Assembly (NCBI RefSeq): GCF_900188065.1
Contig: NZ_FZNQ01000008.1
Span: 1 to 64,000 of the forward strand
Reading direction: 5' to 3'
Length of the DNA: 64,000 bases
Source of the DNA: Halorubrum vacuolatum
GTDB taxonomy: Archaea; Halobacteriota; Halobacteria; Halobacteriales; Haloferacaceae
The notes beneath the pieces were generated by a model. That model did no database searches. It had not been told where the DNA came from and was given only the letters and a program-made list of their open reading frames with translations. Shown here in pieces: positions 1 to 14,522 of this stretch; within the stretch, counting starts at the first letter, position 1, and every line of letters starts with the position of its first letter. The translations under genes and the position numbers were made by a program.

Positions 1-230
1 TGATGATTTTTATCCCGAGCGACCACTTTCGCCCGTCGTTCCGGCAGACTCCCATCACTATGGAACGACGAGAGCGCCTCCACGGACGGTTCCGCCAGCG
101 AAATTTCGATGGCCCTCGCGTCGTCGGAAAGAGACCGCTCTTCCTCGACGGTCGTCCACGCTGCTTCGACTTCGCTTTCGGTCAGTGGCGTCAGTGGATG
201 GCGCGCTTCTTCAGGTTGTCCAAACGACAT
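1..230 (-). CDS. Copper-containing primary-amine oxidase, N-terminal part (cut by window edge)
   Basis: The gene runs off the left edge; about 76 codons are visible, read from the ATG at 228-230. The start reads MSFGQPEEARHPLTPLT, followed by SEVEAAW and IEISLAEPSVEAL. The HPL-x-PLT opening and the later 'slaEPsveal' stretch match the first small domain of copper amine oxidases, which oxidise primary amines to aldehydes with release of H2O2 and ammonia using a topaquinone cofactor. The catalytic Tyr and copper His residues lie outside the window, so the call rests on the N-terminal pattern only. A TATA-like stretch lies near 252-260, and a perfect palindrome covers the start codon. Confidence 0.6.
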   Translation of the reverse strand, partial: MSFGQPEEARHPLTPLTESEVEAAWTTVEEERSLSDDARAIEISLAEPSVEALSSFHSDGSLPERRAKVVARDKNH

Positions 231-245
231 GTGTCATGACACATG
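228..245. promoter_or_regulatory. Perfect 18-bp palindrome at amine oxidase start
   Basis: The sequence CATGTGTCATGACACATG equals its own reverse complement. It includes the start codon of the minus-strand amine oxidase and lies between that codon and a TATA-like TTAATCC on the minus strand (about 252-260). A site there would block initiation, so it looks like a repressor operator. The binding protein is unknown. Confidence 0.5.
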
Positions 246-280
246 ATGGCATAGGATTAATCTCTTTCCTCAGCAGTGAC

Positions 281-945
281 GGTAGTGTTCAGCTAAGCTG
301 ATTCCATGCGAAGGCGAACGATCTGATCCACTGTTCGGCAGTTTCTGGTTCTGCGTTGCTGAAACAGTTTGAGAACTAGAGTGTTCTGCGTTTTACCTCA
401 CGAAAGACATGTTCATTGCTGTTTCGATTTCCGTGACATTCGTCTCTGAAATCGAGGTCGTGCTTGCGGCAACCTCTGTGGAGTGAGTGCGCTCCGTCGA
501 TCAATATACTCGCCTCCTCGATCTCGTGTTTGGCGCAAGTTCAGTGAAGAACTGATCGACAATCATGTTGTTTCTCGTCGGTTCAAGACTTGTGTGTGAC
601 AGATCGCTTGAGTCGGGATCGACAGCAGCGTACAGCCAGGATTGTTCGTCGTCACGCTGAATCACCGTTTCATCAACAGCAACGTGATTCGGGCTTCGAC
701 CAGCCTCCGGCTGTCGATCTGCCTTATGAATCCAGTTATGAACGGTTGGACGACCCCGACCAACACCGAACATTTCAAGTGAAGAGGCAGTATTCGAAAG
801 CATAATTCGGAGGGATGAAGCCGAAGACTGAGCTTCATCAACAGCCGCGGTGTTGCTTCTCGTTCCACAAAATCTACGTTGATCTCATCCAAACAGCCGC
901 TGAGCTAGGCGTTTTCGGGCAGAGATCACTTTGAAAACGCATCGC
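281..945 (-). mobile_element. Degenerate IS6-family insertion sequence
   Basis: The remnant is bounded on the left by GGTAGTGTTCAGC (281-293), which looks like an IS6-type terminal repeat. On the right a diverged match is seen around 932-945 (reverse complement GGCGATGCGTTTTCA). Inside is a single broken transposase gene. The end coordinates are approximate because the right repeat has decayed; no target duplication could be confirmed. Confidence 0.4.
289..919 (-). pseudogene. IS6-family transposase pseudogene
   Basis: Minus-strand fragments in different frames join into one IS6-type DDE transposase. The N-terminus is PENA-stop-LSGCLDEINVDFVE (the ATG appears changed to CTG and a TAG sits at codon 5), followed by REATPRLLMKLSLRLH. 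After a frameshift near 810 comes FGVGRGRPTVHNWIHKADRQ and VAVDETVIQ (first catalytic Asp) and LYAAVDPDS. After a second shift near 530 come ILIDGAHSL (second Asp), HGNRNSNEHVFREVKRRT (catalytic Glu region), an in-frame TAG, and finally WIRSFAFAWNQLS. With at least two frameshifts, two nonsense codons and a lost start it cannot make a working transposase. Confidence 0.8.
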
Positions 946-960
946 CTCACCTTTCAATCC

Positions 961-1229
961 TTATCTGAACACCGCCCGTCGGACGAACCCAAGGTATTTG
1001 CGTTCGGTCGAGAGTTGAGAGGCGAGTGGTGTCCACGGGAATTCGTGTACGTCAACCTGGTGGGCATTCAGACATTCGATCGCCCATTGAGTCAGCGCGT
1101 GTCGAACGAGTTGATACCGTCGCTTGTCGAGTACGTCTCGACCGGATCCCGTTCGTCGAGATCGGAATCGTCGCTCCAGATGGCTGCATCAGTGACGTCA
1201 CTCGTGAGCGAGCGGATGCGGGTGTCCAC
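961..1229 (-). pseudogene. Possible decayed gene between IS remnant and MMPL gene
   Basis: From a GTG at 1227-1229 the minus strand reads VDTRIRSLTSDVTDAAIWSD with haloarchaea-like acidic composition, ending in TGA at 1092-1094. A one-base shift then continues WAIECLNAHQVDVHEFPWTP and on to FVRRAVFR before TAA at 961-963. The two pieces look like one frameshifted reading frame next to the dead insertion sequence. I do not recognise the family. The stretch 946-1301 otherwise shows no convincing gene; a plus-strand frame over 931-1305 lacks haloarchaeal composition. Confidence 0.2.
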
Positions 1230-1301
1230 TGAACGCGTCGTTTACATACCGCTCGGGAGGATATTCATTGTCGAGGCCGCTCCTCGCGTAACGACCGTAG
1301 C

Positions 1302-3848
1302 ATGACATCGCCATCGACCGACGGCCGACCCAACTGGGCAATCGTCCTGTTTGAGCGTCGAAGCCGGCTGTTGGTTGTCGTGTTGCTCCTTGCAACGGTC
1401 GCCGTCGGCAGTGGTCTCCTGTTCGGGTCGGGTGGCGGCTTCGAGGTGGCGACGTTCGACGTGAGTTCGCCGGAACACGAGGCCCTCGAAATGACGAGCG
1501 ACCGATTCGATCGGGACACGCGTCCGGTGTCACAGGTCGTCATCCATTCGGAGTCGACCGATACCGTCTCGAAACCCGTGTTGTTGGAGACGCTCAGAGT
1601 TCAACAGGACCTTCGAGCCGATCCGACGATTAACGCGACCCTCACAGAGAATCAGCCCACGGTCGGCCTTGCAAATGCGGTCGCGCTGGCGTCGGACCCA
1701 CGGATCGCCCTCGGCGGTGAGACCGACATCGAGGGGAAGTATCGGACGTTGGAGGGTCGAAGCGACGAGGAGATCGACGCCGCACTCGGCGTCGCACTCA
1801 GGAGTGACGACCTGTCGCCGCCCGACCAGCCGCCGGTCTCCGCGCTGGTTCCACGGGAGTACGAGGCCGGACAGCAGGCGAACGCACAGCTCATCATCGT
1901 CGTCCACGACGAGGAGGCCACTGACGCGGAGCTGCTCGAAGCCCAAGAGGCCATCGAGTCGACCGCCGACGAACGATTCGAGCAGTCCGGCGTCGAATCG
2001 TTCGTCCTCGGAGAACAGCTCGTGCTTGACCGGAGCGGGAGTGCGACCGGCGAGAGCTTCCTGGTCGTCGGGCCGCTGATCGTGCTCGTCGTGGTCGGGC
2101 TGCTGGCGTTGAGCTACCGGGATCCGCTCGACGTCGCGCTCGCGGCCGTGGGTATCGGACTCGTTTTCGTCTGGCTGGTCGGGGCGATGAGCTGGGTGGG
2201 GCTCTCGTTCAATCAGCTGCTGATCGCGGTTCCGTGCCTGCTGGTCGGCCTGAGCGTGGATTACTCGCTGCACGTCGTCATGCGCTATCGGGAGCATCGA
2301 ACACGCCAGCCGGCGTGGCCGGTTGCAACCGCGATGGCCGCCGGAGTCGCTGGCGTGGTGGTCGCCATCGGAGCGACGACGCTGACGACCGCAACCGGGT
2401 TTTTGGCCGGCCTCGCCAGCCCGATCGGCCTCTTGCGGGAGTTCGGGGTCGCCGCCGCGATCGGCATCGGCTCGGCGTTCGTCGTCTTCGGGCTGTTGCT
2501 TCCGGCCCTCCGTATCGAACTCGATGGACTGGTCGATCGCTCGGACCGTCCGGGCGCCCCATCGACGGTCGGCTCGCTCGACGGTGTCCGTCGGCTACTC
2601 GTCGCCTGTGGTTCGATCGGGAGCCGTCGACCGGTGCTGGTCGTCGCGCTCGCCGTTCTGGTGGCGGCCGGCGGCGCGATGGGTGCGACCGCCGTCGAGA
2701 CGTCGACCGATCGGACGGACTTTTTGCCTGAAGAACAAGCCGGCTGGATGGCGTCGCTGCCGGAGCCGCTGCAGCCGGCGTCGGCGGGACTCCGCGAGCA
2801 AACGCTGTTCGTCGAATCCACCTTCGAGTCGCCGTCGGATCGGACCGTCGAGATCCTGATAACTGGCAACGTCACCGCCGGGTCCGTCGATCGGACGCTC
2901 AATGCGGCGCACGCACACGCCGAGGACCGGCCCACGACGGCGACATCGGCGGCCGACGGACCGGTCATCGAGAGCCCACTGACGACCGTCGAGCAGATAG
3001 CTGCGGGGAACGAGACGGTCGCCACGCTCGCCGCCGAGCGCGGTGTGACGGGTACTGGCGATGACGATCAGGACTTGACGGCACTGTTCGATGCCGTCTA
3101 CGCCGCCGACGAGGCCGCAGCCAGCGGCACGATCCACCGAACCGCCGGGAGCGACAACGGCGGCGAGTACGACGCGCTTCGGCTGACGGTCGTGATCGAG
3201 GAAACGGCCGACGCCGAGGCGATCTACACGGACGCCCGCTCGACGGCGGCGGTGATCGATGACGACCCGAACCTGCAGGCGACGGCGACGGGCGAGCCGG
3301 TCGTCGAGGCGGTCGAACAGCGGGCGATCCTCGAGACGGTTCTCACGACGTTTCTGCTCGCACTCGGCGTGATCACGGCCCTCTTGGTGGGCGTGTTCCG
3401 GCTCCGCCATCGGTCGTGGTCCCTTGGGCTGGTCGCGATGCTGCCCGTGCTGTTGGCCATTGCGTGGTTGATCGGCACGCTGTGGGTGCTGTCGATCCCG
3501 TTCAACGCCGAGACCGCGTTGATCGTCGCCATCGCCATCGGGCTCGGAACCGACTATACGGTCCATCTCACCGATCGGTTCGTGACCGAACGCCGGGCAG
3601 GCGGTCGTCGGAACGCCCTCCGATTGACCCTGGTCGAAACCGGCGGGGCGGTCCTCGCCAGCGGAGTGACGACGATGGCCGGCTTCGGGCTGTTGATGCT
3701 GACGATCATCCCCTCGTTGCAGCGGTTCGGCTTCGTGACGGCGGTCGTCACGGGCTACGCGCTGATGGCGACGCTGGTCGTGCTTCCGGCCCTGTTGGTG
3801 CTCTGGGATCGTCGATTGACGACGTTGGATTCGGAAGGGGTCACTTGA
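1302..3848 (+). CDS. MMPL/RND-superfamily exporter
   Basis: This 848-residue membrane protein has the internal duplication of RND transporters. Each half consists of one TM helix (about 24-42 and 440-462), a large extracytoplasmic domain, and a cluster of five helices. Both halves carry the family signature with a membrane Asp: VGLSVDYSLHVVMRYRE (Asp about 320) and IGLGTDYTVHLTDRF (Asp about 751). These residues are expected to relay ions that drive export. It most resembles the archaeal 'predicted exporter' (HAE3-like) group; the substrate, possibly a lipid or hydrophobic compound, cannot be read from the sequence. The ATG at 1302 is the first start in frame with good coding. It is monocistronic, with a dead IS and decayed sequence upstream. 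Confidence 0.9.
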   Translation: MTSPSTDGRPNWAIVLFERRSRLLVVVLLLATVAVGSGLLFGSGGGFEVATFDVSSPEHEALEMTSDRFDRDTRPVSQVVIHSESTDTVSKPVLLETLRVQQDLRADPTINATLTENQPTVGLANAVALASDPRIALGGETDIEGKYRTLEGRSDEEIDAALGVALRSDDLSPPDQPPVSALVPREYEAGQQANAQLIIVVHDEEATDAELLEAQEAIESTADERFEQSGVESFVLGEQLVLDRSGSATGESFLVVGPLIVLVVVGLLALSYRDPLDVALAAVGIGLVFVWLVGAMSWVGLSFNQLLIAVPCLLVGLSVDYSLHVVMRYREHRTRQPAWPVATAMAAGVAGVVVAIGATTLTTATGFLAGLASPIGLLREFGVAAAIGIGSAFVVFGLLLPALRIELDGLVDRSDRPGAPSTVGSLDGVRRLLVACGSIGSRRPVLVVALAVLVAAGGAMGATAVETSTDRTDFLPEEQAGWMASLPEPLQPASAGLREQTLFVESTFESPSDRTVEILITGNVTAGSVDRTLNAAHAHAEDRPTTATSAADGPVIESPLTTVEQIAAGNETVATLAAERGVTGTGDDDQDLTALFDAVYAADEAAASGTIHRTAGSDNGGEYDALRLTVVIEETADAEAIYTDARSTAAVIDDDPNLQATATGEPVVEAVEQRAILETVLTTFLLALGVITALLVGVFRLRHRSWSLGLVAMLPVLLAIAWLIGTLWVLSIPFNAETALIVAIAIGLGTDYTVHLTDRFVTERRAGGRRNALRLTLVETGGAVLASGVTTMAGFGLLMLTIIPSLQRFGFVTAVVTGYALMATLVVLPALLVLWDRRLTTLDSEGVT

Positions 3849-4029
3849 CCCCGGCGGCTTCGTAATAGTATAACAGACGGCGACCACGGGACGGACCCGA
3901 GGCGGGAGCGGACGCTTCTTTCCTGGAGATACTCGTTCGCCTCGTGGCGGGTCCGCCGCGAAGGCGGTATAAACAACTGTATAGTCCAGACATATTCAAA
4001 TACCCCTAGGTGTCATACTCTCAACCGGG

Positions 4030-5637
4030 ATGAGTAACAAGGATAAACGCGAGCCGCCACTCGACGACGAGGAGGCGGCAGCGATAGAAGAGGAACTGAA
4101 CGGGAAGTTCACGATGCCTCGGGGGAGTTCCGAGACGCATCGGCGTCGACTGCTCGGGGCGATCGCCGGCGCTGGGACGGTAGCGGTTGCTGGCTGTCTG
4201 GGGCTGTTCGAGGAGCCGGAGCAGCGAGAACCCGAAGAACCCGAAGAACCTGATGACGACGACGTGGATGATGATGACGATGACGATGATGTAGTCGAAC
4301 GCCCAGATTATACCGCGATCGATACGATGATGCCGGACTGGGTAATGAAGGATCTCGTCATCCCGCTCGATACCCAGATCGCGTACAACGACGAGCAGAT
4401 CTTTTTCAATTTCACGTGGGAGTGGGACGTGCCAAACGGTTGGTTCCATGACCTATTTGTCTACGAAGATGATGAATGGGTTCGATACGGCGATCCAAAT
4501 CCTGGAGTCGCCGATCCCGACTACGGAGTCGGTGATATCTTCAACGGCTTCACCGAAGATCGGCTTTCGTTTATGATCGACGACGGGAGCGTTGAAGGGT
4601 TCGCAAACTTCGGTGGATGGCTAACCATTCACGAAGGGACGCGGACGTTGCCCGGTGCAGTCGAGGGCGAAGAAGTCGAAGATCACCCACACCACGGCGA
4701 CATTCTCGAAAACGACGACGTTCGAAAGTACATCCCCCAGTCTCGAAACGGCGAGTGGTGGGAGAACGACTGGGACGACGTCAAAGATCAAGAAGAACTC
4801 GACGAGATGCTCGAAAACGGCGAGTTCCTCGATATGCCGATGTTGCGAGCACACCGTGGCGCCCCCGGTGGGTATGGAACGACCCACTGTATTCTGGATC
4901 ACCGACACGGTGCCATGGACGAACCGTCGACGCGGATCCGAAACAGCCAAGATATCGTCGACGGCAACCCGGAGTTCATGTTTGACCCGGATGTCGTCGA
5001 AGGTGGAACACTTGACCTCGATGAAATCTATGAGGGCAACGTTCCACAAACCGACACGCACGCGCTGATCGAAGGCGAAAACATGGTTCCGTTCGACGAG
5101 GATGAAGCCGATGTCTATGAGGGTGCGGTGATCCCACGTCGGTACAGCCGCCCGGACGCGGTCGAAGGCCCTGGTGCAATCTGGCAGGTCGATGCGACGT
5201 ACGAAAACGGCACGTGGACCATGGAGATGTGGCGGGACCTGTCGGTTGGTTTCCTCGGTGAAACGGAGTTCGAACCGGGCGAAGTGTATGATTTCTCGCC
5301 GGCGGTCCACGGCGGCGGTGCACAGCGATGGCACTGGGTTGGCTATCCGTACAAACTCGGCCTCGGCGTCGAACCCGAGGATCCTGTCCACGAGGATGCT
5401 GGTCTCGTCGCCGAGGAAGTCGACGGGCGACCTGACTGGGACGAGATCGAAACGTACACCATCCCACTGATGTACCCCGGTCAGACTGACTGGACGTGGC
5501 TCGTCAGCGGTGAACATCCTCGCGTCGACGAAATTCGTAACGACGAGATCAATATCTGGGAGTACCACGACGAAGACCCCGAGGCGTTCGCCCAGCGGAT
5601 GATCGACCTCGAAGAAGCGATGGCCCCCCGAAAATAG
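4030..5637 (+). CDS. Tat-exported lipoprotein with ethylbenzene dehydrogenase-like (heme b subunit-type) domain
   Basis: This is a 535-residue protein with a Tat motif (HRRRLLGAIAGAG, RRR at 38-40) followed by a lipobox with Cys56 (VAVAGC), so it should be anchored outside the membrane. An Asp-rich linker follows (about residues 75-88), typical of haloarchaeal lipoproteins. The C-terminal half contains the pattern IWQVDATYENGTWTMEMWRD ... GEVYDFSPAVHGGGAQRWHW, which resembles the ethylbenzene dehydrogenase gamma-subunit / type II DMSO-reductase heme-binding domain. It lies 180 bases upstream of an Fe-S protein and an NrfD subunit, so a role as an external redox or heme subunit is likely (inference). 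Whether it binds heme is unproven. Confidence 0.75.
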   Translation: MSNKDKREPPLDDEEAAAIEEELNGKFTMPRGSSETHRRRLLGAIAGAGTVAVAGCLGLFEEPEQREPEEPEEPDDDDVDDDDDDDDVVERPDYTAIDTMMPDWVMKDLVIPLDTQIAYNDEQIFFNFTWEWDVPNGWFHDLFVYEDDEWVRYGDPNPGVADPDYGVGDIFNGFTEDRLSFMIDDGSVEGFANFGGWLTIHEGTRTLPGAVEGEEVEDHPHHGDILENDDVRKYIPQSRNGEWWENDWDDVKDQEELDEMLENGEFLDMPMLRAHRGAPGGYGTTHCILDHRHGAMDEPSTRIRNSQDIVDGNPEFMFDPDVVEGGTLDLDEIYEGNVPQTDTHALIEGENMVPFDEDEADVYEGAVIPRRYSRPDAVEGPGAIWQVDATYENGTWTMEMWRDLSVGFLGETEFEPGEVYDFSPAVHGGGAQRWHWVGYPYKLGLGVEPEDPVHEDAGLVAEEVDGRPDWDEIETYTIPLMYPGQTDWTWLVSGEHPRVDEIRNDEINIWEYHDEDPEAFAQRMIDLEEAMAPRK

Positions 5638-5688
5638 GCTCTCGACCCACTATCCTGTGCGGTCTTTTATAAACTGGTGAAAACATAC

Positions 5689-5743
5689 ACGGCGCTCACA
5701 CCGGAGATCGCTCGATCTCGGTAGTCGATCTCCGCGGCGCCGT
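5689..5743. repeat. Interrupted 55-bp inverted repeat upstream of Fe-S/NrfD promoter
   Basis: Outer arms ACGGCGC (5689-5695) and GCGCCGT (5737-5743) enclose inner arms CGGAGATCG (5702-5710) and CGATCTCCG (5726-5734). Sixteen base pairs in two blocks could form a long hairpin or a double operator. It begins about 50 bases after the lipoprotein stop codon and ends 13 bases before a TATA box, so it could be a terminator, an operator, or both. Confidence 0.55.
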
Positions 5744-5756
5744 ATCCATCAGGGGG

Positions 5757-5765
5757 TATATAAAT
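5757..5765 (+). promoter_or_regulatory. TATA box of the Fe-S/NrfD operon
   Basis: TATATAAAT lies about 53 bases before the ATG at 5818, giving an expected 5' leader near 30 bases. A second TATA-like TTTATAAA lies about 5665-5673, on the other side of the inverted repeat, so two promoters may be used. Confidence 0.5.
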
Positions 5766-5817
5766 AACTGCATTATACGGCGGATCTGCTACGGGGGGTG
5801 CGCGATGAATAGTATAT

Positions 5818-6978
5818 ATGAACGCATCAGATCCCCCAGACGATATCGACAGCGAGGCCTGGGAGGCGTGGGCGACCGAGGTCGTCGACGGTACCGGCTT
5901 CGACGTCGAACTCGGGGTCGGGCTCGCCCGCGACGCCCAGCGCGTCGCCCGAGGCGAGATGACCGAAGCCGAATACCAGGCCAAATACCACGAGGACGTT
6001 CTCGACGAGTTCGGCGTCGACGATCGACCCACCGCGCCGGAGCCACAGAAGGCGGACGGCTCGCCGCTGCCCGGGGTTCCCGGCACCGGAAACGGCAAAC
6101 GGTCACGCCGGTCGATGTTGAAAACCGCCGGCGCGATCGGCCTCGGGACGCTCGGGTTGAGCGCGGCACAGCAATCGACGCGCACGGTCGCCGCCCAGAG
6201 CGGCGACGGCGACTCCGAGTCGGACGTCCAGATGGGCATGGCGATCAACACCGACCGCTGTATCGCCTGTCTGCAGTGTATGGACGCCTGTAACGAGGAG
6301 AACGGCAACCCGGCGGAGTCGCTGTGGATGGCCGTCCTCCGCTACCAGGAGGACGACTACACCGACAACGAGGAGTTCCTCACCCGTCCCTGTCAGCACT
6401 GTTCGGACGCCCCGTGTGAGACGGCCTGTCCGACCAACGCCCGCTACACGCGGGAGGAGGACGGCATCGTCCTGACGGACTACGACCAGTGTACCGGCTG
6501 CCGGTACTGTGAGGTCTCCTGTCCGTACGGCGTCAACTACATGGAGTGGGCCGAACCCGGCGGGGGCGACTTCGAGGCCGACCGCGACGTCGACGGCGTC
6601 ACCGCCGCAGGCAGCGCCCCGCAGGGGACGATGGGCAAGTGTACGTTCTGTGCACACCGCCAGGTCAGCGACGACGAGTCGCTCCAAGGGACGACCGCCT
6701 GTGAGGACGTCTGCCCGGTCGATGCGATCCACTTCGGGGATATGAACGACGAGGAGAGCGCCCCGCGGCAGCATCTGGCCAACGACACCGGCGGCCAGCC
6801 GACCTACCGGCTGCTCGAGGACAAAGGAACCGAACCGAACATCGTCTACGTCGGCAACGAACCGTCGCGAACGGCGACCCAGACCGACGGTCCGACCGGC
6901 GAAAACGAGTTCGACCTCGTCCGCGAACGACACGGACGACGCGAGATCGAGATCGGCAGCCACGAGGATGATGACTGA
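5818..6978 (+). CDS. Four-cluster 4Fe-4S electron-transfer subunit (PsrB/HybA/NrfC type)
   Basis: This is a 386-residue iron-sulfur protein. Sixteen Cys in four groups bind four 4Fe-4S clusters: CIACLQCMDAC (148-158), CQHC...CETAC (192-204), CTGCRYCEVSC (225-235) and CTFC...CEDVC (275-299). Such subunits carry electrons between a quinone-reactive membrane subunit and a catalytic subunit. A Tat-like segment (KRSRRSMLKTAGAIGLG, RR about 97-98) is preceded by an unusual extension of about 93 acidic residues, a feature I associate with haloarchaeal members of this family. The stop overlaps the next start (TGATG), so it is co-translated with the NrfD gene. No molybdopterin subunit is adjacent. Confidence 0.88.
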   Translation: MNASDPPDDIDSEAWEAWATEVVDGTGFDVELGVGLARDAQRVARGEMTEAEYQAKYHEDVLDEFGVDDRPTAPEPQKADGSPLPGVPGTGNGKRSRRSMLKTAGAIGLGTLGLSAAQQSTRTVAAQSGDGDSESDVQMGMAINTDRCIACLQCMDACNEENGNPAESLWMAVLRYQEDDYTDNEEFLTRPCQHCSDAPCETACPTNARYTREEDGIVLTDYDQCTGCRYCEVSCPYGVNYMEWAEPGGGDFEADRDVDGVTAAGSAPQGTMGKCTFCAHRQVSDDESLQGTTACEDVCPVDAIHFGDMNDEESAPRQHLANDTGGQPTYRLLEDKGTEPNIVYVGNEPSRTATQTDGPTGENEFDLVRERHGRREIEIGSHEDDD

Positions 6979-8285
6979 TGTCAACCACTAACAACACCAT
7001 ATTAACGCCCCTGAAGACGCTCAGCGTGAAATTCCTCGCGCTGGTCGTCGTTCTCGGCATCGCCGCGCTGGTCATGCTCGAAGCGATCGTTCACCAGCTG
7101 CAACACGGACTGGCCGTGACCGACCTCGCCAGTTGGGGAACCCAGGAGGGCGTGACGTGGGGCATCTACATCGGCACCTTCGAATGGTTCGCCGGAATGG
7201 CCGTCGGTGCGCTCGCCGCCGTCGGCTACATTCGGTACAACGAGCTGACGCGCTACGACATCATCGCGCGCATCGGTGAGCTTTGGGCGCTCATCTCGGG
7301 ATTGTCGGCCGCCTACCTGATCGTCATCGATCTCGGGCGACCCGACCGGGTGCTCAACATCCTGACCGCGTGGTTCGTCACCGTCCAGTACTCGCCGCTG
7401 GCGTGGGACGTGACGTTCGTCACCGCGCTGTTGGTGATGACCTCGGCGATGCTGATCCTCTCGCTGCGGCGGGACTTCAGCGAGATGGATCTGAACAAGC
7501 TGCCGGTCTACACGGCGCTTCTCGGTGAACTGTTGACCCTAGGCTTCCGGCCTGAAGAGCGTGAAAAGCTCGATTCGATGCTGCGCTGGCTCGGCCTCGC
7601 GCTGTTGATCCTCGCGTTCACCGGCGGGATGGTGCCCGGCTGGCTCCTCGGCGTGGTCGGCGCACAGGCGGGCTGGTACGGCGGCATCGCCGGGATCGCG
7701 TTCCTTTCAGCCGGACTGATGAGCGGCGTCGCGGTGCTCGCCATCACGGCCGGGGTGCTTCGGTACCTCTACGGGATGGAGGAGGCCCTCCCCGAGGAGG
7801 TCTTCGTCGGACTCGGGAAAGCGCTCACCCTGTTCGGCTTCGTCTACCTCGTGGTGCAGTTCAACAACCTCCTCCCGAGCATCTTCCCGATGGCACCGCT
7901 GGCCGAATCACGGGTCGGTGAGGCGATGTTGTACGGTCACTTCGCGACCGACTTCTGGCTCGCCATGGGGGCCGTCGCGATCCCGATGCTCATCCTGGCG
8001 GTCTTCCGCGAACGGATGCTCGCCGGCGGCGTCGGGCTGGCGGTGGTCAGCGTAGTCATGCTGTGGGGTGTGTGGGTCAAGAGCCAACTGACCGTCATCG
8101 AGCCGCTCATGTACTCCTCGGGGCTGCCATATGAGGTGGGCACCTACGTGCCGACGCTCGTCGAGTGGGTGATCACGATCGGGTCGATCCTGGTCGCGAT
8201 CCTCCTGTTCTCGATAGCGACGAAACTCGTGCCGATGGGCCGACTGCTCGATGACACGGCGTCGACCGAGGAGGTGAGAAACTAA
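6978..8285 (+). CDS. NrfD/PsrC-family quinone-interacting membrane subunit
   Basis: This 435-residue protein is almost entirely hydrophobic with about ten TM segments. The pattern GTFEWFAGMAVGALAAVGYI near the N-terminus followed by LSAAYLIVIDLGRPDRVLNI is typical of NrfD/PsrC-family subunits, which exchange electrons and protons with menaquinone on behalf of a partner Fe-S protein. It overlaps the Fe-S gene upstream (TGATG) and the small membrane gene downstream (TAATG), so the three are one operon. The protein is longer than the usual eight-helix PsrC. The direction of electron flow (quinone oxidation or reduction) cannot be read from the sequence. Confidence 0.88.
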   Translation: MSTTNNTILTPLKTLSVKFLALVVVLGIAALVMLEAIVHQLQHGLAVTDLASWGTQEGVTWGIYIGTFEWFAGMAVGALAAVGYIRYNELTRYDIIARIGELWALISGLSAAYLIVIDLGRPDRVLNILTAWFVTVQYSPLAWDVTFVTALLVMTSAMLILSLRRDFSEMDLNKLPVYTALLGELLTLGFRPEEREKLDSMLRWLGLALLILAFTGGMVPGWLLGVVGAQAGWYGGIAGIAFLSAGLMSGVAVLAITAGVLRYLYGMEEALPEEVFVGLGKALTLFGFVYLVVQFNNLLPSIFPMAPLAESRVGEAMLYGHFATDFWLAMGAVAIPMLILAVFRERMLAGGVGLAVVSVVMLWGVWVKSQLTVIEPLMYSSGLPYEVGTYVPTLVEWVITIGSILVAILLFSIATKLVPMGRLLDDTASTEEVRN

Positions 8286-8488
8286 TGACAACCACTATCG
8301 GGATCCCGATCCTGCTCGGGCTCCTGCTGTTGCCGGTCTACACCGTCCTCGCCGGCTTCCTGTTCGGCGAGCCGCGGGACTTCAGGACCGCCGGGATCGG
8401 TCTCGGCGTCATGGCCGCAATGGCGGTGTTCATGATCGGCTCGACGGCGATGATGGGGATCGTCTTCGGCATGATTACCCCGTTTTAA
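8285..8488 (+). CDS. Small two-helix membrane protein of the NrfD operon
   Basis: This is a 67-residue protein with two predicted TM segments (about 4-24 and 33-64) separated by FGEPRDFRTAG. Its ATG shares a base with the stop of the NrfD gene (TAATG), which argues strongly for translational coupling and for a place in the same membrane complex. I do not recognise a named family. It may be an accessory helix subunit, as small subunits are common in membrane redox complexes (inference). Confidence 0.7.
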   Translation: MTTTIGIPILLGLLLLPVYTVLAGFLFGEPRDFRTAGIGLGVMAAMAVFMIGSTAMMGIVFGMITPF

Positions 8489-8527
8489 CCACCCTCCACC
8501 CCCACGCTTTCGGGTCACTCAACACAG

Positions 8528-8887
8528 ATGGATCGAAGCTCATCAGCAACGGAGACGACGCCCGTATCGGCCACCACCGAGCCGTGCGACCGGCAACTGT
8601 GTATTGCGCTCGAACGGTACGTTGATGAGATCGTGTCACACGAGGTCGCAACTGCGCAGGCGACGTGGGCCGCACATTCGACGATGACGGACGAGGAGGC
8701 GGCCGTCCTCCGCGAGTTGGCGGAAGCGATCGCGGCCGATGTGGTTACCGAACGCGTTCGGATGGCCGTCCGTGAGGAACTCGACGGCCGATCGACCGCG
8801 TCCACCGACGAGCGGTGTGAACGGATCGCCACGCTGTTCGATCTCCCGTTGGCCGAACCGTACGGCGACCCACCCTCGTCCGAGTAG
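8528..8887 (+). CDS. Unknown small helical protein
   Basis: This is a 119-residue, mostly helical, acidic protein without TM segments or signal peptide. After a Ser/Thr-rich start it has ERYVDEIVSHEVATAQATWA, then DEEAAVLRELAEAIAADVVT and AVREELDG. No catalytic motif is recognisable. It starts 40 bases after the small membrane gene of the NrfD operon and ends about 100 bases before the Mrp ATPase, so it may be the last gene of the electron-transfer operon. It could be a dedicated maturation or chaperone factor, but no sequence feature proves this. Confidence 0.5.
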   Translation: MDRSSSATETTPVSATTEPCDRQLCIALERYVDEIVSHEVATAQATWAAHSTMTDEEAAVLRELAEAIAADVVTERVRMAVREELDGRSTASTDERCERIATLFDLPLAEPYGDPPSSE

Positions 8888-8993
8888 GGCAGCCGATCGC
8901 GCATCCAATTTTGGGGAGGATGCCAACGCCCGTTTTTTTCAGCGGTCGTGTGGAAACACCACCACTATCATCCTGCCAGCCATCCACTCGTCC

Positions 8994-10052
8994 ATGACTG
9001 AGGACCTTCGCGAACGGCTCCGAACGATTCCAGCACCCGATCCATTCACCGACGGAACCGCGGTCGCGGACGATATCGTCGCACAGGGACTGGTCGGCGA
9101 GATCACGGTCGAGGGTGAAACCGCGACGATCGAACTCGCGCTTGGCGCGCCGCACTCACCGGCTGAAACCGAACTCGTCGAGCGAATCCGTGAGGCGGTC
9201 GACGCCGCTGGCTATGAACCGGCGCTGTCGGTGCGGATCGACGACGACACGCCAGCCTCGGGGGGGCCGATCGTGATCGCCGTTTCCTCCGGAAAGGGCG
9301 GCGTCGGCAAGAGTACGATCTCGACGAACCTGGCCGCCGGCATCGCCGATCGTGGGGCGTCCGTCGGCCTGTTCGACGCCGACGTGTTCGGCCCGAACAT
9401 CCCCCGAATGCTCGGCGTCGCCGACGAGATGGTCCCACCCGGCGGCGAAAACACCATCCTCCCGGTCGACGCCGGCGGCATTCAGGTACTGAGCGTCGGC
9501 TTCATGGTCGACGACTCGAACCCGATCACCTGGCGAGGCCCGGTCGTCGATCAGATGTTGAGCGACCTTTGGCACGACGTCGCGTGGGACGGCGTCGAGT
9601 ATCTCGTGGTCGACCTGCCACCCGGAACCGGGGACGCACAGCTGACGATGCTCCAGCAGATGCCCGTGCTGGGTTCGGTCGTGGTCACGACGCCCCAGGA
9701 CGTCGCGCTCGACAACGTTCGGAAAGGGATCTCGCAGTTCGAGCCGTACGAAGCCGAGGTGTTCGGCCTCGTCGAGAACATGAGCACGTTCGTCTGTCCA
9801 AACTGTGGCGAGGGCCACGCGGTGTTTCCGACGACCGGTGCAGCGGCCCTTGCCGACGAGTTTGACGTGCCGCTTCTGGGTCGCATTCCGCTCGATCCGG
9901 CTATCGGCGACCACTGCGAGGCCGGTGAGCCGATCGTCTTCGGGGAGACCGAGACGGCCGAGATCTTTCGTGACTTGGCCGGCGACGTCATGGACGCGGT
10001 CGGGAGACGTCGTCGACACGCACACAGTCGAAACAACATCTCTCACGTCTGA
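8994..10052 (+). CDS. Mrp/ApbC/NBP35-family Fe-S cluster carrier ATPase
   Basis: This is a 352-residue protein with two parts: an N-terminal MIP18/DUF59-type domain (about 1-85) and a deviant Walker A P-loop ATPase (SSGKGGVGKST, about 98-108). A CxxC motif (CPNCGEGH) sits near residue 265, the usual Fe-S binding site of this family. Mrp proteins load iron-sulfur clusters onto targets or, in archaea, act in other cofactor work. Coding also extends upstream in frame, but ATG 8994 gives the family-like start MTEDLRERL. Its place directly after an Fe-S redox module fits cluster delivery. The C-terminus is Arg/His-rich and diverged. Confidence 0.88.
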   Translation: MTEDLRERLRTIPAPDPFTDGTAVADDIVAQGLVGEITVEGETATIELALGAPHSPAETELVERIREAVDAAGYEPALSVRIDDDTPASGGPIVIAVSSGKGGVGKSTISTNLAAGIADRGASVGLFDADVFGPNIPRMLGVADEMVPPGGENTILPVDAGGIQVLSVGFMVDDSNPITWRGPVVDQMLSDLWHDVAWDGVEYLVVDLPPGTGDAQLTMLQQMPVLGSVVVTTPQDVALDNVRKGISQFEPYEAEVFGLVENMSTFVCPNCGEGHAVFPTTGAAALADEFDVPLLGRIPLDPAIGDHCEAGEPIVFGETETAEIFRDLAGDVMDAVGRRRRHAHSRNNISHV

Positions 10053-10336
10053 AACCAACCACCTGCACTGAGCGGTCCCCTGTGGAACCTATAGAGAACT
10101 CTTTCGGCCAATGACTTCCCCGAGAGTAGGTCATATCGTGTCCACCTTCGTGCGCTGTGAATGTGGCGGAACGCATCAGTCCCGTCGTCACCGATCAAAC
10201 CCACGTTGAGCCTTCCAGTTGAACGAAGATGGACGTACTCGCTGGTTGGTACGGATCGGCCAGAGAGGATGTCTGCTCACAAGACGATATCTGCGTGGTA
10301 GTCGAGGTCGGGGAGCCTCACGCGACGCCCGAAGGC

Positions 10337-10924
10337 TCAGATAAGGAGCTGGATGTCGGCCTCGGCCATCTCCTGGAACGCCGAGGCGGCACCGACGCCG
10401 GTCGTGACGCCGTCGTAGAAGTCGTCCTCGTCGTATTCGAGCAGGTCGATGGTCATCTGACAGGCCTGGAGGTCGACGCCGCTCTCGATGGCCGTGTGGA
10501 TCAGCTCCTCGACGGAGGCGACGTTGTTGTCGGCGATCTTCGAGCGCATCATTCGCGTCGTCATCCGGTCCATGCCGGGGAGCGCGCCGATGAGGTTGGG
10601 GACCGGCATGTTGGGGTTGCCGACGGAACTCAGCTTCAGATCCTTCGAGTTCTCCTCGTGGAGTATTTCGAGCCCCCAGAAGGTGTGGAAGACGGTCACC
10701 TCGTAGCCGAAGGCGGCGGCCGTACTCGCGAGAATAAGCGGCGGGTACGCCATATCGAGGGTTCCCTTCGTCGCGATGATGACCATCTTGTCGGGGGTGT
10801 CGTCGTCGGACACGGCCGCAACGTCGGCTTCGAGCTCTTCGATCCGGGCGCGAAGCTCGGCGAGGTCCTCCGCCGTCGGGGGGGCCACGTCCGTCTCCTC
10901 GGACGCTGGCGTATCGGTGCTCAT
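10337..10924 (-). CDS. DsrE-family sulfur-carrier protein (DsrE2-like)
   Basis: This is a 195-residue protein with an acidic, coiled N-terminus (about 1-40, ELRARIEELEADV) followed by a DsrE/F fold: KMVIIATKGTLDMAYPPLIL, VTVFHTFWGLEIL and a conserved Cys in GVDLQACQMTIDLLE (about residue 160), the expected persulfide site. DsrE proteins pass sulfane sulfur to partners such as TusA. The start codon overlaps the stop of tusA (TAATG), so the two are translated together. The region 10053-10336 on its 3' side has no supported gene. Confidence 0.88.
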   Translation of the reverse strand: MSTDTPASEETDVAPPTAEDLAELRARIEELEADVAAVSDDDTPDKMVIIATKGTLDMAYPPLILASTAAAFGYEVTVFHTFWGLEILHEENSKDLKLSSVGNPNMPVPNLIGALPGMDRMTTRMMRSKIADNNVASVEELIHTAIESGVDLQACQMTIDLLEYDEDDFYDGVTTGVGAASAFQEMAEADIQLLI

Positions 10925-11178
10925 TACTCGGCCTTCCGAACGTAGTGTTTGTAGACGGCTGTGCCGTCCTCGGTCGCCTCCACCTGATCGACGAGCTCCG
11001 CGCCGTCCGTCGACTCGGCCCATCCCGCGATGTCGCTCATGCTCCCCGAGTCGGTCGAGACGACCTCCATCGTCTCGCCGTTGGCGAGTTCATCGAAGGC
11101 ACCTTTCGTCTTGATGACGGGCATCGGGCAGTTCAGTCCTTTCACGTCCAGCGTCTCGTCCGCAGTTTCCGTGCTCAT
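10924..11178 (-). CDS. tusA: TusA-family sulfur carrier
   Basis: This is an 84-residue protein with the TusA signature LDVKGLNCPMPVIKTKGAF; the Cys in NCPMP is the persulfide-carrying residue. The ATG at 11176-11178 (MSTETADETLD) was chosen because the longer frame would add an unlikely extension. TusA accepts sulfur from rhodaneses or DsrE and hands it to biosynthetic or dissimilatory enzymes. It is first in a two-gene operon with dsrE and divergent from the rhodanese-MBL gene. A TATA-like AATATAAA on the minus strand lies at 11225-11232. Confidence 0.93.
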   Translation of the reverse strand: MSTETADETLDVKGLNCPMPVIKTKGAFDELANGETMEVVSTDSGSMSDIAGWAESTDGAELVDQVEATEDGTAVYKHYVRKAE

Positions 11179-11367
11179 GATGATCCAGCCTTTGTTGTGG
11201 CTGACACACAATACTAGTACAAAGAATATAAATCTGGTGGTGGATCCGTCGGCGGCGATATCCAGAATATAAGAAACGTCTTGGGCGGTGTGTGCGTATG
11301 TCTGGGTCTGGAGCCTCGAGCGCGACTTGGGAAAGAGTATTGCGTAAAAGTGGAAATACTAACCGAA

Positions 11368-11375
11368 GTTTTATG
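11368..11375 (+). promoter_or_regulatory. TATA box deciding the start of the rhodanese-MBL gene
   Basis: GTTTTATG is centred about 30 bases before the ATG at 11402. That spacing fits a leaderless transcript starting at that ATG and argues against the in-frame ATG at 11390. Confidence 0.45.
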
Positions 11376-11401
11376 TCCGTTGGTCCGGTATGGTACCGTA
11401 C

Positions 11402-12601
11402 ATGAATCCCGAAGAACTTGACTTTCCGACCCCGGAGTCGGACGTCGAGTCCGTGACCGCCGAGAGTCTGAAAGCACGCATCGACGCCGGAGAGGACGTG
11501 GTCATTCTCGATAGCCGCATGGCGAACGACTACGAAGAGTGGCGGATCGGCGGCGAGAACGTCACCACGATCAACGTGCCCTACTTCGAGTTCCTCGATG
11601 AGGAGATCGACGACGACGTGCTCGCGAAGATCCCGGCCGACGAACACGTCACCGTCTTGTGTGCGAAAGGCGGCGCGAGCGAATACGTCGCCGGCGCGCT
11701 CGCGGACCGTGGGTACGACGTCGACCACCTCGATGAGGGGATGAACGGCTGGGCCTCCATCTACGAGGCCCACGAGGTGACCGGCTACGACGGCGCGGGG
11801 ACGCTCCTGCAGTACCAGCGCCCCTCCAGCGGTTGTCTCGGCTATCTCCTCGTTTCCGGGGACGAGGCCGCGGTGATCGACCCGCTTCGGGCGTTCACGG
11901 ACCGATATCTCGCCGACGCCGATGACCTCGGCGTGGCGCTCCGATACGCGTTCGACACGCACGTCCACGCGGACCACATCTCCGGGCTCCGGGAGCTGGC
12001 CGCCGAGGACGTCGAGGCCGTGTTGCCATCGGCCGCCGCCGACCGCGGCGTCACCTACACCGACGAGGTGACGCTCACCGAGGACGGCGAGGAGTTCGCC
12101 GTCGGCGACGCGACGATCGAGGTCGTCTTCACCCCCGGGCACACGACCGGGATGACCTCGTACCTCCTCGATGGAAGCCTCCTCGCCACCGGCGACGGGC
12201 TCTTCATCGAAAGCGTCGCCCGTCCCGACTTGGAGGAGGGCGATGACGGGGCACCCGATGCGGCGCGGACGTTACACGAATCGTTACAGACTCGCGTCCT
12301 CAGCTTGGACCCGGACGTGCTCATCGGCGGTGCCCACTTCAGCGACGCCGCGGAGCCGGCGGCCGACGGCACCTACACGGCTCCGATCGGCGAGCTCCGC
12401 GAGCGAATGGACGCCCTCTCGATGGACGAGGAGGCGTTCGTCGAGACCGTCCTCGCGGACATGCCGCCACGACCGGCGAACTACGAGGAGATCATCGCGA
12501 CGAACCTCGGCGTGAACGACGTCGATGACGACGAGGCGTTCACGCTCGAACTCGGCCCGAACAACTGTGCGGCCAGTCAGAATGCGCTCACCAGCGACTG
12601 A
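11402..12601 (+). CDS. Rhodanese-metallo-beta-lactamase fusion (persulfide dioxygenase-like)
   Basis: This is a 399-residue fusion. Residues about 15-115 form a rhodanese domain with the active-site Cys in VTVLCAKGGASEYV. From about residue 130 it is an MBL-fold hydrolase with the metal motif THVHADHISG, the later GHTTGMTSYLL, and SVARPDLEEG. Rhodanese plus ETHE1-like MBL combinations oxidise glutathione- or thiol-persulfides to sulfite. It is divergent from tusA-dsrE and followed by two YeeE/YedE genes. Sulfite from this enzyme would be a natural substrate for the TSUP exporter downstream (inference). Confidence 0.9.
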   Translation: MNPEELDFPTPESDVESVTAESLKARIDAGEDVVILDSRMANDYEEWRIGGENVTTINVPYFEFLDEEIDDDVLAKIPADEHVTVLCAKGGASEYVAGALADRGYDVDHLDEGMNGWASIYEAHEVTGYDGAGTLLQYQRPSSGCLGYLLVSGDEAAVIDPLRAFTDRYLADADDLGVALRYAFDTHVHADHISGLRELAAEDVEAVLPSAAADRGVTYTDEVTLTEDGEEFAVGDATIEVVFTPGHTTGMTSYLLDGSLLATGDGLFIESVARPDLEEGDDGAPDAARTLHESLQTRVLSLDPDVLIGGAHFSDAAEPAADGTYTAPIGELRERMDALSMDEEAFVETVLADMPPRPANYEEIIATNLGVNDVDDDEAFTLELGPNNCAASQNALTSD

Positions 12602-12622
12602 TCGCCACGTTGAGGGCGAACC

Positions 12623-13186
12623 ATGATCGCCGAACTCCTCGGGGCCGGTACGGCCGAGGCGTTCTTTCCCAACGGGATCGCCCGCTACGCGGTCGGTGGG
12701 GTCCTCGTCGGGCTGGCGACCGCGATCATCTACCTCGGCACCGGCATCCATGCGGGCGCGAGCACGTTCCTCGAATCGACGCTCTCGTACGTCTCGGACC
12801 GGAGTCGGTTCCAGCAGGCCCGGTTCGTCACCTCGCGTGACTGGCGGGTGGTGTTCACCCTCGGCATCATCGGCGGCGCGGCGATCTACGCCGTGACCTT
12901 CCAGTCGGGCCTCCTGCAGAGTGGCCTCTATACGCCCGGCACGACCGGCGAGCTTCGCGAGGTCGGCGGGGTCACCGTCTGGTTGACCGACGTACAGCCG
13001 TGGCGGCTCTTCCTCGGCGGCGTCCTCGTCGGGATCGGGACGCGGATCGGGAAGGGGTGTACCTCCGGGCACGGGATCTGCGGCGTCGGCTCCGTCTCGC
13101 GGACGTCGCTCGTCGGGGTGGTCACCTTCCTGATCGTCGCCATCGTGACGGCGAACCTCGTCGCGGCGATGGGGGTGAGTCCCTGA
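12623..13186 (+). CDS. YeeE/YedE-type sulfur transporter, N-terminal half protein
   Basis: This 187-residue membrane protein has about five TM segments and the family Cys signature GKGCTSGHGICGVGS (about 151-165). In YeeE/YedE (TsuA-like) transporters such Cys residues relay thiosulfate or sulfane sulfur through the membrane. Here the family is split into two genes joined by a TGATG overlap at 13184-13188, so the pair most likely forms one transporter. It lies 21 bases after the rhodanese-MBL gene, in the same operon. Confidence 0.88.
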   Translation: MIAELLGAGTAEAFFPNGIARYAVGGVLVGLATAIIYLGTGIHAGASTFLESTLSYVSDRSRFQQARFVTSRDWRVVFTLGIIGGAAIYAVTFQSGLLQSGLYTPGTTGELREVGGVTVWLTDVQPWRLFLGGVLVGIGTRIGKGCTSGHGICGVGSVSRTSLVGVVTFLIVAIVTANLVAAMGVSP

Positions 13187-13644
13187 TGGCCGACCGTCAT
13201 CCGCTGTTCATCCCGCTCGTGCTGTTCGGTGGACTCGTCTTCGGGTTCGGGCTGGGCTTCAGCCATATGGCCCGGCCCGAGGTCGTGTTGAACTTCCTCA
13301 CGTTCGACGACCTCGGGCTGTTGTTCGTCATGTTTGGGGGCTCTATCGTGGCCGGGCTCGCGTTCTTCCTCGCGCCCCGGTTGCGATCCGGGGCGCCGCT
13401 CACCGGCCGACCGTACGGTCGCCGGTTGAAGTCCTTCGATCGAAACGTGCTCATCGGCGGATCGGTCTTCGGCGTCGGCTGGGGGCTATCGGGCATCTGT
13501 CCGGGCGCCGCCTACGCGAGCCTCGGGGTCGGGAACGTGACGATCCTGTGGGCCATCGCCGGGATGTTCCTCGGCGCGTACGCGCAGGGTGCCCTCAGGA
13601 GCATCCGGGCGGATTCGAGCACGGCGGCTCCGGCCGACGACTGA
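13186..13644 (+). CDS. YeeE/YedE-type sulfur transporter, C-terminal half protein
   Basis: This 152-residue protein has about four TM segments. The family motif GLSGICPGAAYASL (about 101-114) contains the second conserved Cys. The start at 13186 overlaps the stop of the first YeeE/YedE gene; coding in the same frame extends upstream but has no membrane character there. It pairs with the preceding gene to give a complete split transporter. The C-terminus ends in a short charged tail. A T-rich stretch (CTCTTTTTATA, about 13678-13688) between it and the convergent Usp gene may be a terminator. Confidence 0.87.
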   Translation: MADRHPLFIPLVLFGGLVFGFGLGFSHMARPEVVLNFLTFDDLGLLFVMFGGSIVAGLAFFLAPRLRSGAPLTGRPYGRRLKSFDRNVLIGGSVFGVGWGLSGICPGAAYASLGVGNVTILWAIAGMFLGAYAQGALRSIRADSSTAAPADD

Positions 13645-13691
13645 TCGGGTTCGTTCGACGCGGCGTCCGGGCGCCGCTCTCTTTTTATATG

Positions 13692-14522
13692 CTACGACGG
13701 CGGGACGATCATCACGTTGCCGGCTGCCCGTGCGACGATGTCCTCCGAGACGCTTCCGATGAGCAGCCGTCGAAGCCGACTTCGCCCTCGCGATCCGACG
13801 AGCGTCGTCGTCGGGTCGACCGCCTCCTCGACCGCGAGTATCTCCGCCGCCGGGTCACCCTGCCGGACCTCGATCCGCGTCTCGATGTCCCAGTCGGCGA
13901 GCTGTGCGGCGAGCGTCTCCAGTTGATCCGACGGGTCGTCACCGTCGCCGGGATCCTTCGGCGTCTCGACATGGACGAGCGTTACCTCCTTCGTCGCGTG
14001 CCGGAGGTACGAGAACGACTCGAACGCGCGGTCGGCGTTCTCGGAGAAGTCCGTCGCGTACAACATCCGCCTGAAGAGCTGTGTTTTCACCACCGACGGT
14101 TCGTCCGTCCCACGCTCGATCCGGTTGACGATCAACGGGGTCTCCGTCGTCCGGGCGAGGTTACGGGCCGTCGAGCCGATGATCCGGTTTTCGAGCGGGC
14201 TCTTCCCCCGGGAGCCGACGATCGTGAGGCTTGCCCCGAGCGTCTCCGCAAGCCCGCGGATCCGCCGGTGGGGCGTGCCGCGGACGACGTGGACCTCGCT
14301 GTCGAAGCCGGCCTCGGCGATCACCCGCTCGTAGCTGCGGATCGCCCGCCGACGGCGTTTCTCGAAGTCGATTCCGGGCATTCCACGGTGGACGTTCGCG
14401 GGGATGACCGTCACGAGGTGGATCTCCTCGACACCGATGCGGCCGAGACAGGCCAGGCAGGTCTCGTTGTGGATCGTCGCCTCGCTGGCCGCCGAGAGGT
14501 CGGTGGCGAGTACCGCTTTCAT
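13692..14522 (-). CDS. Tandem universal stress protein (two Usp domains)
   Basis: This is a 276-residue protein with two Usp domains. Domain 1 (MKAVLATDLSAASEATI) ends with the nucleotide-binding pattern IVGSRGKSPLENRIIGS. Domain 2 (MLYATDFSENADRAFESF) ends with LVGSRGRSRLRRLLIGSVSE. The G-2x-G-9x-G(S/T) type motif suggests ATP binding in both. Start 14522 removes an unconvincing upstream extension. The gene is convergent with the YeeE genes, and its promoter region adjoins the operator-rich stretch before the TSUP operon. Such tandem Usp proteins often sit beside transporters. Confidence 0.85.
   Translation of the reverse strand: MKAVLATDLSAASEATIHNETCLACLGRIGVEEIHLVTVIPANVHRGMPGIDFEKRRRRAIRSYERVIAEAGFDSEVHVVRGTPHRRIRGLAETLGASLTIVGSRGKSPLENRIIGSTARNLARTTETPLIVNRIERGTDEPSVVKTQLFRRMLYATDFSENADRAFESFSYLRHATKEVTLVHVETPKDPGDGDDPSDQLETLAAQLADWDIETRIEVRQGDPAAEILAVEEAVDPTTTLVGSRGRSRLRRLLIGSVSEDIVARAAGNVMIVPPS

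Follow-up and report, generated by a model that had tools for sequence, protein, structure and literature searches.

What can an NrfD-type electron-transfer gene set do when no catalytic molybdopterin subunit is encoded beside it? The question is raised by four genes at positions 4030-8488 of a 64,000-nucleotide stretch of Halorubrum vacuolatum DNA (contig NZ_FZNQ01000008.1), hereafter called the window. They encode an exported lipoprotein, an iron-sulfur (Fe-S) protein with four clusters, an NrfD-like membrane protein and a small membrane protein, and both the open reading frames and the Pfam matches agree with this gene set as proposed in the initial annotation. The module is real, is not unique to the window genome and is not an ordinary molybdoenzyme. 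On balance we favor its function as a quinone:exported-carrier oxidoreductase that works without a molybdenum catalyst and probably passes electrons from menaquinol to the lipoprotein.

Proteins encoded by the gene set

The cysteines of the Fe-S protein number exactly 16 and fall into four groups; almost all are unchanged across 33 homologues, indicating four [4Fe-4S] sites. Its twin-arginine translocation (Tat) motif, SRRSMLK, occupies residues 96-102. Tyr230, within the motif CRYC, aligned with the quinone-site tyrosine of QrcC and was kept in 32 of the 33 homologues; in QrcC this tyrosine is needed for the quinone reaction, and the same site holds alanine in PsrB of Thermus (PMC13059093). 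With 16 cysteines and a tyrosine beside a proximal-cluster cysteine, the protein falls among the four-cluster subunits of the NrfC/PsrB type. The N-terminal extension before the Tat motif had at first been described as unusually long, but it corresponds to the Ferredoxin_N domain PF16947, found in 148 of 292 haloarchaeal genomes. A second PF16947 match in the window genome (C65:102085-102210; loci L069 and L090) lies in a 95-amino-acid (aa) open frame that shortly precedes a DmsA-like gene equipped with a DmsB and a membrane anchor of its own. Elsewhere, too, the domain is found in frames of about 80-100 aa, a hint that it may act independently in maturation or as a chaperone.

The NrfD-like protein matched the NrfD/PsrC subunit model above its gathering score (25.8 bits). 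Its invariant residues include G120, P122, R124, S139 and P140, in a numbering independent of that of ActC and of the quinone-site and ion-path residues of QrcD (Ser138, Asp70, Arg358). In the list of open reading frames, one-base overlaps join the Fe-S gene to the NrfD gene and the NrfD gene to that of the 67-aa protein.

The lipoprotein carries export signals in the form of a Tat-like RRR at residues 38-40 and a lipobox cysteine at residue 56. Its EB_dh domain (PF09459) covers residues 107-435 with a score of 87 bits (cut-off 33.3), and a profile search of the genome found no other EB_dh protein. Searches of the PDB with the single sequence of the lipoprotein or of NrfD gave no match. The lipoprotein was also compared by way of its AlphaFold2 model, which has a mean predicted local distance difference test (pLDDT) score of 77, and the closest PDB structures found with Foldseek were NxrC (7b04_C, E 2.7e-5) and the gamma subunit of ethylbenzene dehydrogenase (EbDH; 2ivf_C, E 5.6e-5). 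Matches at E < 0.001 were limited to these two proteins (7b04 chains C and O for NxrC), and the next, unrelated match had an E-value of 0.4. A profile built from 43 lipoprotein sequences also matched 2ivf_C in a comparison of hidden Markov models (E 3.7e-5), so the EB_dh-like domain named in the initial annotation holds by domain, fold and profile. K233, M317 and H140 were invariant in all 43 homologues and H435 in 42 of them. Binding of heme b by the lipoprotein is likely.

Related loci and gene neighborhood

Eighty loci of the Fe-S family, a non-random sample taken from the most similar matches, were surveyed for neighbors within 6.5 kb. An NrfD gene stood beside the Fe-S gene at 54 loci, 50 of which also had an Mrp gene, while 22 of the 80 had none of the other searched genes nearby. 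Pairing of the Fe-S protein with NrfD is widespread among haloarchaea, and the common core of the module consists of these two, the small protein and Mrp, with the lipoprotein as an alternative partner. The four genes first grouped together thus do not form a closed set.

No catalytic molybdopterin subunit is encoded near the module, as the initial annotation had stated, and its absence is the rule for the Fe-S/NrfD family, since MopB occurred at only 2 of the 54 loci. The window genome has four molybdopterin subunits, all distant from the module. Two are parts of complete Dms-type operons that include an Fe-S protein and an anchor (on C64 and at C65:102575, the latter about 94 kb from the module), and the other two look cytoplasmic and have no Tat signal. 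As all four are accounted for, a partner encoded elsewhere in this genome, which the initial annotation had named as the finding that would refute its reading, was rejected, and no catalytic subunit was found either in the operon or as an orphan.

In place of a catalytic subunit, exported one-electron carriers adjoin the module. At six loci a co-directional halocyanin gene precedes the Fe-S gene by 19-65 bp, and at three more halocyanin is encoded directly upstream, giving nine in total. Lipoproteins with [2Fe-2S] clusters adjoin the module at four loci (L121, L143, L146 and L147) and the lipoprotein homologue at two others (L072 and L073). Linkage of the EB_dh lipoprotein to Fe-S/NrfD occurs in the window and at ten further loci; at one locus on a contig edge (L151) the link is to the Fe-S gene alone. 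Two orientations of the linked genes were seen, and the linkage persists when identity falls to 34-54%; the closest named relative of the window, locus L141 of a Halorubrum metagenome-assembled genome (MAG), shares 98-100% identity over the lipoprotein, Fe-S protein and NrfD. These neighbors fit the earlier suggestion that the module may move electrons between menaquinone and an external acceptor.

In the Fe-S tree, the lipoprotein-linked members cluster (2 changes versus 8.6 in shuffles, with 0 of 500 as low) and are separate from the type accompanied only by Mrp. Two genomes (G254 and G045) each have one halocyanin-led and one lipoprotein-linked copy, which argues for partner specificity. 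In an actinobacterial MAG (Nitriliruptorales), an EB_dh protein is encoded directly before a Tat Fe-S protein, after which the contig ends.

GluTR (glutamyl-tRNA reductase), a relative of which usually goes with the lipoprotein, makes the first committed heme precursor. In three genomes (G033, G141 and G268) a second full-length GluTR follows the lipoprotein, in addition to the housekeeping copy. In L145, L078 and L149 the same position is taken by a 304-313-aa version lacking the reductase (NADPH) domain, in L167 by a 150-aa protein consisting of the dimerization domain only (PF00745, 31.9 bits, above cut-off) and in the group of the window by a 107-153-aa protein. The 119-aa window protein has no direct Pfam match; it matched the pseudo-GluTR of L145, L149 and L078 with an hhalign E-value of 9e-8, and its link to GlutR_dimer runs through the L167 and L145 intermediates. 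These same-position relatives match PF00745/PF05201, the L145 protein with 22.0 bits, just below cut-off. A structure model of the window protein was too poor (pLDDT 50) and was not used. The association of GluTR relatives with the lipoprotein supports heme binding by the latter.

An MMPL transporter is often found with the lipoprotein; among contexts whose flanks are intact, its share is about half or more. It stands beside the lipoprotein homologue at L071, L072, L073, L076/L148, L089, L143 and L144, and 5 kb off, with an insertion, at L146. In the window, the MMPL gene ends 181 bp upstream of the lipoprotein gene and is co-directional with it, and 180 bp separate the lipoprotein and Fe-S genes. 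The MMPL, GluTR-relative and Mrp genes extend the gene set as first described, and all three lie on its strand. A scan for Sigma-70-type promoters and terminators gave results at chance level and is unsuited to archaea. Coordinates are collected in Table 1.

Table 1. Genes and domains in and around the module (window positions)
Feature	Position	Strand	Evidence
MMPL/RND-family membrane transporter	1302..3848	+	PF03176, 105 bits
Tat/lipobox lipoprotein, EB_dh fold, 535 aa	4030..5637	+	PF09459; AlphaFold2 model and Foldseek; profile to 2ivf_C
Four-[4Fe-4S] Fe-S protein, 386 aa	5818..6978	+	Fer4_11 (Pfam), 16 cluster Cys, Tat motif
Ferredoxin_N domain, N-terminal extension of Fe-S protein before Tat motif	5848..6036	+	PF16947, 85 bits, residues 11-73
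NrfD-like membrane protein, 435 aa, predicted quinone site	6978..8285	+	PF03916, 67 bits; hydrophobicity, invariant residues
67-aa membrane protein, two hydrophobic segments, conserved after NrfD	8285..8488	+	locus comparison
119-aa relative of HemA C-terminal dimerization domain, without catalytic/NADPH domains	8528..8887	+	hhalign via intermediates
Mrp/ApbC-type P-loop Fe-S-cluster carrier, usual last operon gene	8994..10052	+	PF10609, 293 bits

Several other arrangements were seen in the survey. At the lipoprotein-linked loci L149 (11496-12146) and L167 (10929-11603) the GluTR-like gene is followed by one encoding a membrane protein of 216-224 aa that has no Pfam match. EB_dh paralogues that lack a signal peptide (L079, L080, L152-L159 and others) often occur with an MFS transporter, itself conserved, as well as an ArsC-like phosphatase and a DUF892 protein. 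At L133, L134, L138 and L223, partly in small (2.1-3 Mb) haloarchaeal genomes, related Fe-S proteins are found with a DmsC-like anchor, a double [2Fe-2S] lipoprotein and ABC-transporter or CoxG-like genes. Within the window, positions 10337-13644 after the module encode DsrE, TusA, a metallo-beta-lactamase/rhodanese protein and YeeE-type membrane proteins. A sulfur-metabolism module was considered from these neighbors and rejected, since the sulfur genes are not with the module in L071 or L146. In the open literature, nothing relevant was found on NrfD with halocyanin or on a GluTR paralogue tied to such a module.

Direction of electron flow

We propose that the Fe-S protein would assemble with NrfD and the 67-aa protein into a membrane complex facing the cell exterior. 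On the model of NrfCD and QrcCD (PMC8076601, PMC13059093), NrfD is expected to bind menaquinone on the outer side, with electrons passing through the Fe-S protein. The four Fe-S clusters would connect NrfD to the exported lipoprotein, which would hold one heme b in its EB_dh fold. Menaquinol would be oxidized and single electrons handed to the lipoprotein, which in turn could deliver them to a further acceptor, be it an oxidase, a second exported carrier or an external acceptor. The heme of the lipoprotein may be supplied or handled by the GluTR relative, and perhaps also by the MMPL transporter, while Mrp may act in cluster assembly. The heme b of EbDH has a potential of +256 mV (PMC8840923); if that of the lipoprotein is near this value, flow from menaquinol to the lipoprotein is favored.

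Three points weigh against this proposal. The lysine that ligates heme in EbDH is not conserved at the aligned position of the lipoprotein, whereas the gamma subunits of type II DMSO reductases hold heme b by Met/Lys axial ligands; the lipoprotein does have the invariant K233, M317 and H140 and the nearly invariant H435. EB_dh relatives without NrfD exist, cytoplasmic ones beside an MFS transporter and bacterial ones alone, indicating that the lipoprotein can act without the Fe-S/NrfD module. Finally, the module could run in reverse, into menaquinone.

In such a reversal an external donor such as sulfide, or some other reduced compound, would feed electrons to the lipoprotein, and menaquinone would be reduced by Fe-S/NrfD. 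QrcCD does work toward quinone (PMC13059093), and sulfur-transfer genes lie downstream of the window module, at 10337-13186. However, as noted above, these genes do not travel with the module at L071 and L146, and the halocyanin neighbors together with the complex III distribution described below point to quinol oxidation, albeit for the wider family and not necessarily for the window branch. We regard reverse flow as unlikely.

Less probable still is that the lipoprotein itself is catalytic or binds a substrate through its EB_dh/CBM9-like fold, so that the linkage would reflect a substrate-specific respiration. Its conservation is very high across 400 residues and leaves many Trp, His and Arg unchanged, which exceeds the need of a simple carrier, and the family, although it reaches bacteria, is concentrated in haloalkaline habitats, mostly soda lakes and other saline sites. 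Against this, the best structural matches are heme-b electron-exit subunits, no catalytic EB_dh protein is known and the GluTR neighbors suit heme binding. The initial annotation had offered the lipoprotein as the possible business end of the module; this found no support, and the protein looks like a carrier. An ordinary complex iron-sulfur molybdoenzyme (CISM) with its molybdopterin subunit encoded elsewhere in the genome is very improbable given the genome inventory and the rarity of MopB near the family, although by sequence the Fe-S subunit belongs to the DmsB/PsrB/ArrB type and regulators of the DmsR type are encoded near the module at L071, L146 and L149.

The wider NrfD family, complex III and known systems

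About a third of haloarchaea have no complex III, and their route from menaquinone to halocyanin was listed as unresolved in a 2021 review of open protein-function issues (PMC8305020). The occurrence of cytochrome b (PF13631) and of the NrfD family (by alignment, core E < 1e-150) was compared over the same 292 haloarchaeal genomes. The NrfD family was present in 67 of 69 genomes without cytochrome b above cut-off versus 31 of 223 with it, and the Fe-S family in 68 of 69 versus 54 of 223; absence of cytochrome b was called by one Pfam model, and some genomes are drafts. The contrast in NrfD also appeared within families, with 8/8 (no cytochrome b) versus 5/50 (with) in f3 and 56/56 versus 9/18 in f4, for a stratified p of about 3e-12 in genomes that are related and not independent. 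The two genomes with neither cytochrome b nor the NrfD family are small (2.1-2.2 Mb) members of family f2. Three of the nine halocyanin-led loci are in genomes without cytochrome b.

The wider family is hence a candidate for the missing complex III function of haloarchaea. We tentatively suggest that NrfD, the Fe-S protein and the small protein may form a complex III substitute, a menaquinol:halocyanin oxidoreductase, of which the window could be a specialized branch with a heme-b lipoprotein in place of halocyanin and a dedicated, duplicated and reduced GluTR protein. Two caveats apply to this comparison. Quinol oxidases could equally bypass complex III, and many petB-less genomes carry a second, unlinked NrfD copy with no notable neighbors. 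The window module as a strict replacement was rejected, since its genome has cytochrome b, as do most with the lipoprotein-linked branch; this makes the lipoprotein-linked module a parallel branch. In petB-less Natrialbaceae (L257-L266, L275 and L276) the second NrfD copy has no Fe-S, small-protein or Mrp neighbors, and an unpaired Fe-S paralogue is found elsewhere in such genomes. The near-complementarity with cytochrome b makes the published question addressable by gene deletion, and the window branch adds an exported heme-b-type lipoprotein as alternative partner, together with an unexplained tie to GluTR relatives.

Among known systems, haloarchaeal DmsABC and PsrABC share the Fe-S protein and NrfD-type anchor, with a DmsR-type regulator at some loci, but the window module has no molybdopterin subunit and its Fe-S protein is exported by its own Tat motif. 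The best NCBIfam model for the Fe-S protein was DsrO of DsrMKJOP (148 bits) and the sole one for NrfD was DsrP (56 bits), both far below their cut-offs of 200 and 350, and no DsrMKJ genes were found beside the module. Alternative complex III (ActABCDEF) resembles it in NrfD-type quinol oxidation to a one-electron carrier, and the window Fe-S protein matches ActB. The window module differs in having one NrfD, all 16 cysteines versus the [3Fe-4S] site of alternative complex III, and neither the ActB fusion nor the multiheme cytochrome ActA; ActB fusions, multiheme ActA and paired NrfD-like subunits were absent from window positions 1-14000 and were not seen beside the relatives. EbDH gamma and NxrC share the PF09459 fold and profile of the lipoprotein, which is about twice as long, has no alpha/beta type II molybdoenzyme partner and does not keep the aligned lysine ligand.

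The module also resembles QrcCD of the Qrc complex of Desulfobacterota and NrfCD. In both, a four-[4Fe-4S] protein and an NrfD-like protein link quinone with an exported carrier without any active site in the pair, and the quinone-site tyrosine of QrcC is conserved in the window Fe-S protein (PMC13059093). Qrc differs in having the cytochrome QrcA and the MopB-like QrcB, neither of which was found with the window module, MopB being rare in the locus survey as well, and Nrf serves a c-type nitrite reductase. Compared with both, the window module has its own EB_dh lipoprotein partner, the 67-aa membrane protein, the PF16947 domain, Mrp and the GluTR relative. The module belongs with the NrfD/Fe-S quinone oxidoreductases, among which its exported lipoprotein of the heme-b type is a new partner.

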